A stretch of 64,000 nucleotides of DNA from Methanocorpusculum sp. (lineage in GTDB: Archaea > Halobacteriota > Methanomicrobia > Methanomicrobiales > Methanocorpusculaceae). The position numbers and the translations under genes are program-made. Positions within the stretch are counted from its first letter, which is position 1. The number at the start of each line of letters is the position of its first letter. The notes beneath the pieces were generated by a model. That model was not told the DNA's origin and made no database searches. It was given only the letters and a program-made list of their open reading frames with translations. The stretch covers positions 62,001 through 126,000 of the forward strand of contig NZ_JAUSPQ010000007.1 of the NCBI RefSeq assembly GCF_030655665.1, written 5' to 3'. Below are positions 24,616 to 32,333 of this stretch, piece by piece.

Positions 24616-25398
24616 TTAAATGTTCTTATTCCCCGCCTCTAATTTCTCGATTTCGGCGAGAACATCTTTCCTGAGTTTGGCAAACTCTACACTAGTCCTA
24701 TCACGGGGTCTTGGTAGAGGATTTGGATATATTTCATAAATTCTTCCCGGACGAGGAGTGAGAATGACGATTTTATCAGAAAGATAAACTGCTTCATCAA
24801 CACTGTGCGTAACGAAAATTACCGTCTTTTTCGTTTCCTCCCAAATCTGGAGAAGCTCACGCTGCATTTTATTCCGGGTCTGCGCATCGAGCGCGCCAAA
24901 CGGTTCGTCCATCAGCATGACGGCCGGATCTGTTGCAAGAGCCCGGGCAACTGCCGCCCGCTGACGCATGCCCCCGGATAATTCGTATGGGTAGCTGTCG
25001 CCAAATCCGGCGAGACCTACCAGCGCAAGACGCTTGTTGACTTCGGCGATCCTCTCTTCATTTGGAACGCCGGTCATCTCTAAGCCGAACCCTACATTCT
25101 CCGCGACGGTACGCCACGGATAAAGAGAGTATTCCTGAAAGACCATCGTCATCTTCGGGGAGGGACCGTCAACGATCTTTCCATCGATCGAAACGGTTCC
25201 ACTGGTCGGAACATCAAGCCCCCCTATCATTCGAAGAAGGGTGGTTTTTCCACAACCGGAAGGTCCGAGCAGGCAGACGAATTGACCGTCATGGACCTCG
25301 AGATTGACATGCTCCAGAGCAGTGACGTCACCTTTCCGTGAGGAGAACGTCTTTGTGGCGTCCTCCACTTTCACCCATACCTTATCCCAGTCAGTCAT
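24616..25398 (-). CDS. ssuB: ABC transporter ATP-binding protein (nitrate/sulfonate/taurine type)
   Basis: The 260-residue ATPase energises import of a small anion. It has Walker A GPSGCGKTTLLRMIG, Q-loop VFQEYSLYPW, signature LSGGMRQRAAVARALATDP, Walker B VMLMDEPFGALD and the H-loop FVTHSVDEAVYL. Sequence and gene company place it in the SsuB/TauB/NrtD branch. Its ATG overlaps the stop of the permease gene (ATGA). The true substrate is unknown: sulfonates, including coenzyme M-like compounds, are plausible in a methanogen but this is inference. The symbol is by family only. Confidence 0.9.
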   Translation of the reverse strand: MTDWDKVWVKVEDATKTFSSRKGDVTALEHVNLEVHDGQFVCLLGPSGCGKTTLLRMIGGLDVPTSGTVSIDGKIVDGPSPKMTMVFQEYSLYPWRTVAENVGFGLEMTGVPNEERIAEVNKRLALVGLAGFGDSYPYELSGGMRQRAAVARALATDPAVMLMDEPFGALDAQTRNKMQRELLQIWEETKKTVIFVTHSVDEAVYLSDKIVILTPRPGRIYEIYPNPLPRPRDRTSVEFAKLRKDVLAEIEKLEAGNKNI

Positions 25399-26156
25399 TT
25401 GTCAAGCACCTCCCAGGCGAACTTTTTCCGCAGAACATACTGGAAGAACTGATCCATAAAGATGCCGATGATGCCGATGGCGATCATGCCGGCGATGACC
25501 ATCTGGATCTGACCCCAGTTATATGTGTACATGATAAGATATCCAAGACCCGACACGGTTCCCGGCATCATTTCCGCAGCGACAACACTCATCCAGGCAA
25601 TACCGAAGCCGACGCGAAGCCCATTCCATATGGCAGGACCCGCGGCCGGAACGATGACCTTGGTGATGATCTGGCGCTCATTTGCCTGATAGATCCGGGC
25701 TGTTTCGATCCAGCTTTTCCTCACCCTTTTCACACCATCTATAGTATTGACAAGGATCGGAAAGATACAACCGATCACGATGATAAACAGGATCGGAGTA
25801 AGACCCAACCCGAACCAGGCAAGGGATAAAGGCACCCAAGCCATGGGCGGGATGGGGCGAAGGATCTGGATCAGACTATCGGAAAACTGTTCAAGAACAG
25901 AATACCTGCCGAGAATGATTCCCAGAGGGACTGCGACCAGGCAGGCGATGATAAATCCAAGCGTTACCCGGTAAATACTGACCCAGCTGTTTTCCAGGAG
26001 ACTTCCGCAGCCGTAAAGATCGGCAAACGGCGTCATAAAGACGGCGAGAACATTTTCCACCCGGGGAAGGATGTATGCATTGTTCATCAGAATCGCTGCA
26101 ACTTCCCACAAAATGAGAACGAGTGCCGGAAGTATCAGCTTAATGTACCATTTCAT
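25395..26156 (-). CDS. ssuC: ABC transporter permease (nitrate/sulfonate/taurine type)
   Basis: The 253-residue permease has six predicted transmembrane helices and the ABC-permease cytoplasmic loop EAA-like motif in VIVPAAGPAIWNGLRVGFGIAW, preceded by IYQANERQIITK. It forms the dimeric channel for the ATPase encoded just downstream (four-base overlap). A TATA element at 26236-26247 indicates that permease and ATPase can be transcribed independently of the binding-protein gene, which ends 144 bases upstream. Confidence 0.9.
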   Translation of the reverse strand: MKWYIKLILPALVLILWEVAAILMNNAYILPRVENVLAVFMTPFADLYGCGSLLENSWVSIYRVTLGFIIACLVAVPLGIILGRYSVLEQFSDSLIQILRPIPPMAWVPLSLAWFGLGLTPILFIIVIGCIFPILVNTIDGVKRVRKSWIETARIYQANERQIITKVIVPAAGPAIWNGLRVGFGIAWMSVVAAEMMPGTVSGLGYLIMYTYNWGQIQMVIAGMIAIGIIGIFMDQFFQYVLRKKFAWEVLDK

Positions 26157-26300: not shown

Positions 26301-27515
26301 TTACGCGGATTTGACCACGTAGGCGATGCCGGCATAATCAAGAGCCGACTTCAGCATGACATCCTGGATAGAGCCGAGCTGGGGATCACCGAGAACAACA
26401 TTTTTGCCTTCGGCGCTGCGTGACTTCACCCAGGCAACAAACCCATCCCAATCGTTGGCCGGGGAGGAGAGATAAGCTACAAGTCCGGATCCTTCAAGCA
26501 TGATCGGTGAGAGGATCTTGAGACTCATGTCACCGGTACTCTTATCAACTGCGCTGATAAAAGGCGGAGTGCCGGCAAGTGCATACTGAATGGCATTCTG
26601 CTGGAGAAGGGTCATCAGCTGGGATCCGCCGGTTCCTTCGACAAGTTTGACATCGGCGACCTTCTGACCGTTGATGTAGAGTTCGGCATCAGTGATCTTA
26701 CCGGTCTTTTCCGTGACAGGTTTCAGGTAACAGTTATAGGTATTCTTGAAGTATTCCCAGTCCTTCAGGAGAACGAACAGGGGTGCGTGATGATCACTGG
26801 GTAGGTATCCGATCGAGATGGTCGATGTAGGAGCAGGCGTGATGAATATTCCGCTTTCTACCTGTGCAACTGCCGAATCATACGGACCAAAGTCGTAAAG
26901 GATTGCTGCAGACTCATCCTTAGATGTCGATGCGAGTTTTGCAGTAACAAGACCAAGTTCACGCTGGGACTGGATAAACGCCTCATTGCTGTCCATCCAA
27001 GACTCGGTAACTTCGCTGGAGAACTTGATCGTCGGAATCGAGGTCTTCATCACATCAATCGAACTGACGGTCACATTTCCATAGGTCAGATTCTGACTCG
27101 AGAAGAGCCAGTCGGCGGTCAGGACTGCTGCTTTATCCGGATAATCGTTGATATATTTGTTTCCAAGGATCATCAGAGCCGTAAGGCTTGATGCGACATC
27201 AGGATTCTCCAGAGCTTTGGAGTTGGCACCGAACACACAGCAGGTATGATTTTTCCAGGTTCCTTCAGGTGGAAGATCCTGACTATATGAAATCACTTTT
27301 CCGATGTTACCTTCTAAGGCAACGGCAACAAAAGGCTGCCAGTTGATGTAACCGTCGATCTGGCCGGTTGCAAGAAGTCCGGGCATTGTTCCGGCTCCGG
27401 TATAGAGAATCTCCACGGTAGCATTGTCACTTCCGGGGTCGGTACATCCTGCGGTAAAAACCACCATGACACACATAACGAATGCCATAAAAATCAGAAT
27501 CAGCTTTTTCTGCAT
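26301..27515 (-). CDS. ABC transporter substrate-binding lipoprotein, circularly permuted
   Basis: The 404-residue lipoprotein starts at ATG 27515 with a signal peptide and lipobox (VFTAGC, Cys24). It belongs to the NMT1/SsuA-type binding proteins, but its halves appear in reversed order. Residues 33-218 (TVEILYTGAGTMPGLLATG, ATGQIDGYINWQPFVAV, ending ILYDFGPYDSAV) are normally the C-terminal part. Residues 232-404 (ISIGYLPSDHHAPLFVLL, GGSQLMTLLQQ, ending DPQLGSIQDVMLKSALDY and AGIAYVVKSA) are normally the N-terminal part. A Pro/Thr-rich linker near ITPAPTST (about 225-232) joins them. Both lobes are complete, so it may still bind ligand. It serves the permease and ATPase downstream. Confidence 0.85.
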   Translation of the reverse strand: MQKKLILIFMAFVMCVMVVFTAGCTDPGSDNATVEILYTGAGTMPGLLATGQIDGYINWQPFVAVALEGNIGKVISYSQDLPPEGTWKNHTCCVFGANSKALENPDVASSLTALMILGNKYINDYPDKAAVLTADWLFSSQNLTYGNVTVSSIDVMKTSIPTIKFSSEVTESWMDSNEAFIQSQRELGLVTAKLASTSKDESAAILYDFGPYDSAVAQVESGIFITPAPTSTISIGYLPSDHHAPLFVLLKDWEYFKNTYNCYLKPVTEKTGKITDAELYINGQKVADVKLVEGTGGSQLMTLLQQNAIQYALAGTPPFISAVDKSTGDMSLKILSPIMLEGSGLVAYLSSPANDWDGFVAWVKSRSAEGKNVVLGDPQLGSIQDVMLKSALDYAGIAYVVKSA

Positions 27516-30329: not shown

Positions 30330-32333
30330 TTAATCTCTTCCGTAGAAGCCGTGACCGGAGTCCCTTCTGGGGGCTGCCGGTCCGCTGCTTCCGCGGCTGA
30401 AACTTCTTCTGTCACCGCTGCCGGAACTCCGGTCCCCGCTACGGTAGTTACTTCCGCCACTACTTCCGCCACGATTTCCGTAGGAGGAGCCGCCACTACT
30501 TCCACCGCGGTTTCCATAGGAGGAGCCGCCGCTTCTGTATCCACCAGAGGAACCTCCGCGCCGGTCTCCGCCTGAGCTGGATGATCCGCCGCTTCTGTAT
30601 CCGCCAGAGGAACTTCCACGCCGGTCTCCGCCTTTGTCCCGGTCACGCTCATGTTCCTCTTCTTCAGCAGTACGTGGTGCTGCGATGGAGATCTCAAGTT
30701 CCTGACCACGGATGGTCTTGGAACCCATGACCTCGGCAACAAGATTTGCATGCTCTAAGGGAACATCGACATAGGAGTAGTTGTTGTACAGATCGATCCT
30801 GCCAATTGAGGAGCCCGGGATGTCGCACTCGCCTGCAAAGGCTCCGACGATATCCTTCGGGCGGATCTGTTGGTTCTTACCAAGGGAGATCCTGAATCTG
30901 ACCATACCCGCCTCAGCACCGCTGCTTTCAACGGTCCCGGGCGTAAACGTCTCAGAGATTGAGGCAGAGGGTTGAAGAGGCTTAATGTCCTCACTTTGAC
31001 TGACATTCTTACCGGAATCAAGGTGCATCTTCAGAAGAGCTGCCGCGACCTGAATACTGGTCACTTCTGCTGTGGATTCAGAGTCTGTCTCGGTTTCCGT
31101 CTCAAGAAGCTGCTCAACGAGGGGAAGATACATCTCAAGATTTCCTGAAGCCATGATATCCCGGACTTTGTCCAGGAAGATCTGCTGTTTCATCTCAGCT
31201 ACATCATCCAAAGTCGGCAGAGGGGTCTTGGCGATCTGGATCTTTGCATACCGCTGGATATCCCTGAGTTTGTAGATCTCACGTGGAGCAACAAACGTCA
31301 CGGATTTTCCGGCCCTGCCTGCACGGGCAGTTCTGCCAATACGGTGTACATAATACTCGACATCCTGCGGAACATCATAATTGAATACAATATCCACATC
31401 ATCAACATCGATACCGCGTGCTGCAACATCCGTTGCAATCAGGACATCGATGGTACCGGCCCGGAAGCGTGCCATGACACGATCCCGCTGCTGCTGCTTC
31501 ATATCTCCGTGGAGAGCTTCCACAAAGTATCCGCGCGCCTGCATCCGGCTCATTAAATCATCCACCGTTCTCTTCGTGTTACAGAACACGAGTGCGAGTT
31601 CGGGGTTGTTCATATCAAGAGTGCGGCAAAGTGCTTCGAGTTTGTCGCGTTCTCTGACCTCGATATAGGTCTGCTCGATCTGAGGGACCGTAAGTTCCTT
31701 ACGGGTGATCTTCAGGAACTGAGGGTCATGCTGGAACCTTCTGGTGATGTCCAGGATCGGCTGCGGCATTGTGGCCGAGAACAGGATAGTCTGCCGGTCC
31801 TTTGGTGTATCTCGGAAAATATCCTCGATATCATCACGGAATCCCATATCAAGCATCTGATCAGCTTCATCAAGGATGAACATCTTGATCGAGTCGAGAT
31901 GCAGGGTCCCACGTTTGATGTGATCAATTACACGACCCGGGGTTCCGATGACGACCTGCACATTGCCTTTGAGGGCACGGAGCTGGCGGTCGATCGGCTG
32001 TCCACCGTAAATCGGGACTACATTCAGCCCTTTTTTATATTTCATCAGCCGAGAGAATTCCTCGGCGGTCTGTATTGCAAGTTCCCTTGTTGGTGACAGG
32101 ACAAGTGCCTGTACATTTTTGTTATCTGGATCAAGCCTTTCAATAATTGGAATCCCAAACGCTGCCGTTTTTCCCGTTCCCGTCTGAGCCTGCCCCGTTA
32201 CATCTTTCCCATCAAGGATCTGTGGTATTGCCATTACCTGAATTGGTGTTGGCTCCTCAAATCCCATGTCGCCTATCGCCTGAAGTATTTCTTCAGAGAT
32301 CGCGAAATCCGCGAATGTTTTTGTTTCCTCCAT
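30330..32333 (-). CDS. deaD: DEAD-box RNA helicase with Gly/Ser/Arg-rich tail
   Basis: The 667-residue helicase unwinds RNA, probably in ribosome assembly or cold adaptation. The core (about 1-370) carries the Q motif region PTPIQVMAIPQIL, Walker A AQTGTGKTAAFGIP, PTRELAIQ, DEAD in FILDEADQMLDMG, SAT in LFSATMPQPI, and HRIGRTARAGRAG. Residues about 480-560 form a DbpA-like RNA-binding domain (MVRFRISLGKNQQIRPKDIV). The last ~100 residues are low-complexity repeats of SSGGYRSGG and SSYGNRGG with RGG-like boxes, a flexible RNA-binding tail. The tail is coded by imperfect tandem DNA repeats (30340-30650) that can expand or contract. Confidence 0.95.
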   Translation of the reverse strand: MEETKTFADFAISEEILQAIGDMGFEEPTPIQVMAIPQILDGKDVTGQAQTGTGKTAAFGIPIIERLDPDNKNVQALVLSPTRELAIQTAEEFSRLMKYKKGLNVVPIYGGQPIDRQLRALKGNVQVVIGTPGRVIDHIKRGTLHLDSIKMFILDEADQMLDMGFRDDIEDIFRDTPKDRQTILFSATMPQPILDITRRFQHDPQFLKITRKELTVPQIEQTYIEVRERDKLEALCRTLDMNNPELALVFCNTKRTVDDLMSRMQARGYFVEALHGDMKQQQRDRVMARFRAGTIDVLIATDVAARGIDVDDVDIVFNYDVPQDVEYYVHRIGRTARAGRAGKSVTFVAPREIYKLRDIQRYAKIQIAKTPLPTLDDVAEMKQQIFLDKVRDIMASGNLEMYLPLVEQLLETETETDSESTAEVTSIQVAAALLKMHLDSGKNVSQSEDIKPLQPSASISETFTPGTVESSGAEAGMVRFRISLGKNQQIRPKDIVGAFAGECDIPGSSIGRIDLYNNYSYVDVPLEHANLVAEVMGSKTIRGQELEISIAAPRTAEEEEHERDRDKGGDRRGSSSGGYRSGGSSSSGGDRRGGSSGGYRSGGSSYGNRGGSSGGSSYGNRGGSSGGSNYRSGDRSSGSGDRRSFSRGSSGPAAPRRDSGHGFYGRD

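Follow-up and report, generated by a model that had tools for sequence, protein, structure and literature searches.

Known systems

SsuA-type receptors close their ligand between two lobes and dock on the permease of an ABC importer. Coenzyme M (CoM), the cofactor behind methane formation, has an analogue, bromoethanesulfonate, that is a classic inhibitor. Almost all methanogens carry ssuABC as a CoM transporter (PMC10658910), and a CoM-specific SsuABC system that is induced under CoM starvation has been described in M. acetivorans (PMC12068725). Few natural permutations of ABC binding proteins have been documented; the published case that was found is TpMglB-2 (Tp0684) of Treponema pallidum, a sugar receptor of Type I that has a permuted topology and retains glucose binding, and for which the designation 'Type Ic / Cluster Bc' was proposed (PMC4990184). 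Its authors suggested that tethering may have favored the permuted topology (PMC4990184). Within the open-access literature searched, permuted substrate-binding proteins (SBPs) were represented by the Treponema case and by engineered sensors only, and no report of a permuted Type II SsuA-fold receptor was found.

The window analyzed here, a stretch of 64,000 nucleotides from a Methanocorpusculum genome, carries a gene that most probably (with a probability of roughly 0.8) encodes a functional, lipid-anchored SBP of an SsuABC-type importer with a permuted SsuA fold, a reading that includes the proposed ligand, tether, and origin. On this reading it is a permuted Type II receptor that is conserved in a methanogen order, with canonical relatives in equivalent operons and an apparent recent independent event for comparison. 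The gene, its parts, and its operon partners are as follows.

26301..27515 (-), open frame of 404 aa (plus stop) for the predicted circularly permuted SsuA/NMT1-type substrate-binding lipoprotein
27444..27515 (-), residues 1-24, comprising the signal peptide and a lipobox whose AG-C24 does not vary in the family alignment
26862..27419 (-), residues 33-218, canonical C-terminal half, with WQPF and HTCC motifs
26823..26861 (-), residues 219-231, linker from the canonical C-terminus to the canonical N-terminus, the fastest-evolving part (dN/dS 0.21-0.31)
26304..26822 (-), residues 232-404, canonical N-terminal half, with GYLPSDHH, GG..LM, AGTPP, EGSG, and SIQD motifs
26646..26714 (-), additional beta-hairpin at about residues 268-290, a feature of the Methanomicrobiales permuted clade that canonical relatives lack
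25395..26156 (-), ABC permease (SsuC/SaoP/NtrB-type) of the same operon, by profile match
24616..25398 (-), ABC ATPase (SsuB-type) of the same operon, by profile match

The protein of 404 residues starts with MQKKLILIFMAFVMCVMVVFTAGCTDP, and its lipobox AG-C shows no variation across a 17-sequence alignment. The open frame, signal peptide, lipobox (AG-C24), and both halves lie where the original prediction had placed them. The neighboring transporter genes that it had noticed are also confirmed: SBP, permease, and ATPase stand together, which is the gene set of an SsuABC importer, and the operon is conserved. The permease, the ATPase, and the gene for ribosomal protein L16 lie on one side of the SBP gene, and panE/mobA-like genes on the other. 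Further along the window, at 30330-32333, an ORF resembles a DEAD-box RNA helicase with a long Gly/Ser/Arg-rich C-terminal tail.

Swapped order of the two halves

In its native order, the protein is matched by PF13379 (NMT1_2) in two pieces that are out of sequence, profile positions 150-243 at residues 27-128 and only then positions 3-149, which places the break at 149/150 of the profile. Searching all 11 contigs of the genome (Methanocorpusculum, 1.81 Mb) returned the same arrangement, with 150-243 lying upstream of 3-149 in a single open frame, in what is the sole PF13379 gene of these contigs; each half-match had an E value of 1e-9 to 1e-10, and chance is therefore excluded. When the protein is rotated (231-404 followed by 33-218), a single match covers profile positions 7-243 with 85.0 bits versus 75.8 for the native order, both exceeding the curated cut-off of 24.7. 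With the SsuA_fam profile TIGR01728, rotation raises the score from 35.6 to 45.6 bits (match over residues 53-286), and in either order the protein stays below the curated cut-off of 163.5, which the canonical archaeal relatives L065, L128, and L214 exceed. The permutation had been proposed together with this very comparison, and it is supported in that the native order outscored the rotated one on neither profile.

A second rotation test used a custom HMM built from twelve canonical-order archaeal relatives, on which proteins were scored in native and in doubled form, the doubling spanning the joint. The window protein rose from 75.8 to 130.5 bits, whereas doubling cost canonical-order proteins up to about 24 bits (54 in one truncated protein). 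In proteins with long upstream open-frame extensions, doubling does not bridge the joint and adds almost nothing to the score, with the two out-of-order stretches remaining visible. The window protein thus contains each half once, in swapped order, and gives a continuous match after rotation; the half order of canonical SsuA/NMT1-type (Type II) proteins is not the one it has. Pfam and NCBIfam gave matches of the NMT1/SsuA type only, and none to a TpMglB-2-like Type I fold.

AlphaFold2 modeled the native order from a 45-sequence alignment with a mean pLDDT of 92.4 and a pTM of 0.87. Foldseek, which follows chain order, found 0 PDB matches at E<=1e-3 for this model (best TM 0.29) and no solved structure with permuted connectivity, while the canonical control, L128 of Methanobrevibacter, gave 1420 matches at that threshold, the best being S. 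aureus 3un6, TauA 6ssy, and SsuA 3ksj/2x26 (E about 1e-21, TM about 0.8). Single-sequence searches of solved structures returned nothing significant for either the native or the rotated order; an alignment profile reached TauA 6ssy, again in two out-of-order pieces. Order-dependent tools such as Foldseek and single-stretch HMM matches miss or split permuted proteins. The chain would be a natural circular permutation of the SsuA two-lobed fold with its termini in lobe 2.

Distribution and operon context

Searches of related genomes, a scan of 84,980 species, and HMMs of the two halves revealed homologues with the permuted order in Methanocorpusculum, Methanocalculus, Methanofollis, Methanoregula, and Methanolinea. 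The original prediction had suggested looking for the ordinary order among close relatives, but in the close homologues of the Methanomicrobiales the permutation is fixed: all of them share it, including two from one-contig genomes (G014 and G016). This clade A comprises 85 distinct permuted sequences; the species scan used patterns specific to it. A divergent sub-clade of about 33% identity (L047, L048, L050-L052, L061, and L062) has the same order. Genome G204 is the only clade-A carrier in its family, its relatives with both halves matched being canonical, and some Methanomicrobiales genomes have canonical relatives only (e.g., L058 and L179). It is the more distant relatives that have the ordinary order, namely, those in Methanobrevibacter and other families of the Halobacteriota. 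In some Methanocorpusculum genomes, permuted SBPs occur as tandem pairs (L060:6073-8669, L080:28-2730, and L089:5974-8570); these were considered as duplication intermediates and ruled out, both copies being complete permuted proteins.

A second permuted group, clade B, occurs in other families of the same phylum (L054, L055, L057, L059, L063, L064, L149-L159, L161, L163, L166, L168-L172, and L185). Its proteins are shorter, mostly 330-380 aa, and are cut in the same loop as those of clade A, at about position 160/163 of the canonical HMM in both. A tblastn search with a clade-B query for a permuted relative on bacterial plasmids gave partial matches only, none covering 80% of the query. Two further NMT1-type matches, G251:C158:5995-6627 and G256:C120:16908-17609, lie in open frames of 819 and 1170 aa and may be fusions; they are in canonical order.

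The order SBP-permease-ATPase is kept in nearly all permuted loci with enough flanking sequence (clade A, clade B, and L056, described below) and in the majority of canonical Halobacteriota loci for which flanks were retrieved. Several Methanocorpusculum species have the SBP separated from the permease and ATPase, both of which are retained elsewhere in the genome; at L211, L212, L213, L070, and L124 the operon is split, with the SBP beside panE/mobA-like genes and the permease-ATPase pair beside ribosomal protein L16. No permease or ATPase match adjoins the Methanobrevibacter SBP genes within the fetched flanks. A divergently transcribed HTH regulator is common to canonical, A, and B loci. 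Most Methanomicrobiales have it next to the operon; Methanocorpusculum does not, its homologue lying elsewhere. This regulator (L023, L054, L059, L064, L065, and L081-L125), in some cases with a PrpR_N-like part, is a candidate sensor of CoM/sulfonate status.

Number of origins

One protein, L056 (L056:5365-6453, genome G095), is permuted at another site, position 122/123 of the HMM, with the C-terminus 'RKGLTP' and the start 'GIKTIADLKG'. Doubling adds 138 bits on the canonical HMM, and its closest relatives, in G068 (pieces 84% and 70% identical), G086, and G077, are canonical. It is apparently an independent, recent permutation at a different breakpoint, known from one assembly of 220 contigs to which an artefact reading still applies.

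In an SBP tree for which rotation had first brought all sequences into one order, three placements are separate: clade A (100/99), clade B (100/100), and L056, which falls within a canonical clade (100/100 with L065). This tree does not reject A and B as one clade (AU p 0.22), and together with the shared breakpoint this lends some weight to a single ancient permutation, in which the common ancestor of both clades, whose cuts lie in the same loop, was already permuted. Such an origin is possible but rather doubtful: the permease plus ATPase tree sets A apart from B and the canonical systems (100/99) and marginally rejects A and B as one clade (AU p 0.038), the linkers of A and B differ by eye, and L056 attests that a new permutation can occur in the family. 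The evidence supports at least two permutations in the family, and three events are likely. The fuller picture, in which archaeal CoM/sulfonate receptors were permuted at least three separate times (in clade A, in clade B, and in a single recent case), twice at the same loop, while operon, ligand, and partners were kept, is quite conceivable and is advanced tentatively. If true, nature would have run a repeated experiment on the chain order of a binding protein, for which the site of the membrane tether may have been the driving factor.

Ligand

The operon has CoM biosynthesis genes as neighbors in three different contexts, of which two have a permuted and one a canonical SBP. At L059 (clade B), cysteate synthase (above its cut-off) and ComDE are neighbors; at L053 (clade A), the permuted SBP comes after ComDE and a ComB-like gene whose protein falls below its cut-off; at L214, the canonical SBP comes after MMP16/ComF, cysteate synthase, and ComDE. 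From these neighborhoods in a few genomes, the equivalence of canonical and permuted operons, and the published systems (PMC12068725, PMC10658910), the ligand is probably CoM or a close sulfonate.

The same protein may also bind another small molecule, such as taurine, another sulfonate, a thiamine precursor, or a nitrate-like anion, with the CoM genes nearby only incidentally. TauA/SsuA-like families bind several sulfonates, taurine and isethionate being among the candidates. The SsuA, TauA, SaoX, and NMT1 profiles match the family or its relatives weakly to moderately, no CoM gene lies within 6 kb of most clade-A operons, and the CoM genes of the window genome itself are on another contig than the operon. 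Against these observations stand the three gene contexts, the CoM-specific system published for M. acetivorans (PMC12068725), and the fact that the window gene is the only PF13379-type SBP in its genome; a different ligand is accordingly a minority option, although one to be taken seriously. At L059, a canonical SsuA-like protein (L059:4920-5825) is encoded between ComDE and the permuted SBP; like L196, L201, and L205, it has no obvious signal peptide (the four proteins measure 302-316 aa) and is perhaps an intracellular sulfonate-binding or CoM-pathway protein.

Conservation and selection

Residues conserved in both canonical and permuted proteins occur in the C-terminal part of the window chain (G236, Y237, S240, and H242 of GYL.S.H, G297, G315, P318, G342-S343, and S382-I383-Q384) and, across the joint, at P61, H90, and C92. 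The dN/dS of the window gene versus three relatives is 0.07-0.10 overall and 0.08-0.10 and 0.06-0.09 for the two halves, the linker being relaxed at 0.21-0.31, which shows strong purifying selection on the gene; full-length matches are free of internal stops.

The separate profile matches of the two halves might suggest a fusion of SBP halves of different origin, that is, a new two-part receptor instead of a permutation. This is very improbable, as each half is present once and the two are complementary parts of one profile (the 149/150 breakpoint), rotated sequences match continuously, and the AlphaFold2 prediction is one compact protein. A one-contig artefact, or a gene decaying after rearrangement, is to all intents ruled out by the low dN/dS in both halves and the lack of stops, and by the conservation of the order in dozens of genomes that different groups assembled; since these are independent assemblies, two of them in one contig, the misassembly across the joint that would have undone the original prediction is excluded.

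Proposed mechanism and origin

In the favored reading, a permuted receptor of an SsuABC-type importer, both ends of the chain would lie in a lobe 2 loop flanked by the helix '...QDVMLKSALDYAGI' and the strand 'TVEILYTG', and the short linker would connect what were ancestrally the N- and C-terminus. Like other Venus-flytrap receptors, the protein would close around its ligand and hand it over to the permease and ATPase, while its lipid anchor would now tether lobe 2 instead of lobe 1. The permutation may have arisen, more than once in the family, through the fusion of tandem duplicates whose outer halves were then lost; a model of duplication, fusion, and trimming exists (PMC3320104). The duplication-then-loss route assumed from the outset is therefore plausible, but no tandem-fused intermediate was found among the homologues examined.

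Comparison with known systems

With the permuted family, the effects of chain order, tether position, and hinge crossings on receptor function and evolution could be tested directly, and the family has a bearing on the uptake of CoM by methanogens. With the SsuA/TauA family (PF13379, TIGR01728, and TIGR01729; PDB 2x26, 3ksj, 6ssy, and 3un6) the window protein shares the family residues, an operon with an SsuC-like permease and an SsuB-like ATPase, and, by prediction, both lobes; it differs in its swapped order, in the signal peptide placed before the second half, and in the extra beta-hairpin of the Methanomicrobiales clade. The canonical relatives from Methanobrevibacter (L127-L146) and other Halobacteriota, which provide the best fold control, have the GYLPSDH, EGSG, SIQ, and HPCC motifs in common with it, but they keep the ordinary order with an N-terminal tether on lobe 1 and lack the hairpin insert. 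The CoM-specific SsuABC of M. acetivorans (PMC12068725) has the same gene set, and related archaea have equivalent operons with CoM genes as neighbors; the canonical relatives examined, all from other archaea, are of ordinary order.

The closest parallel in topology is TpMglB-2, likewise a natural, circularly permuted, and tethered ABC substrate-binding lipoprotein that is conserved in relatives. In experiments, TpMglB-2 retained ligand binding. Family and ligand are unrelated: the Treponema receptor is bacterial, has a Type I (glucose/galactose, Cluster B) fold, and has its cut in the N lobe and one additional crossing of the hinge, while the window protein is archaeal, with a predicted SsuA/NMT1 (Type II, Cluster F) fold that would be cut in lobe 2. 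By analogy with the nomenclature proposed for TpMglB-2, it would be the 'c' form of its own SBP cluster.
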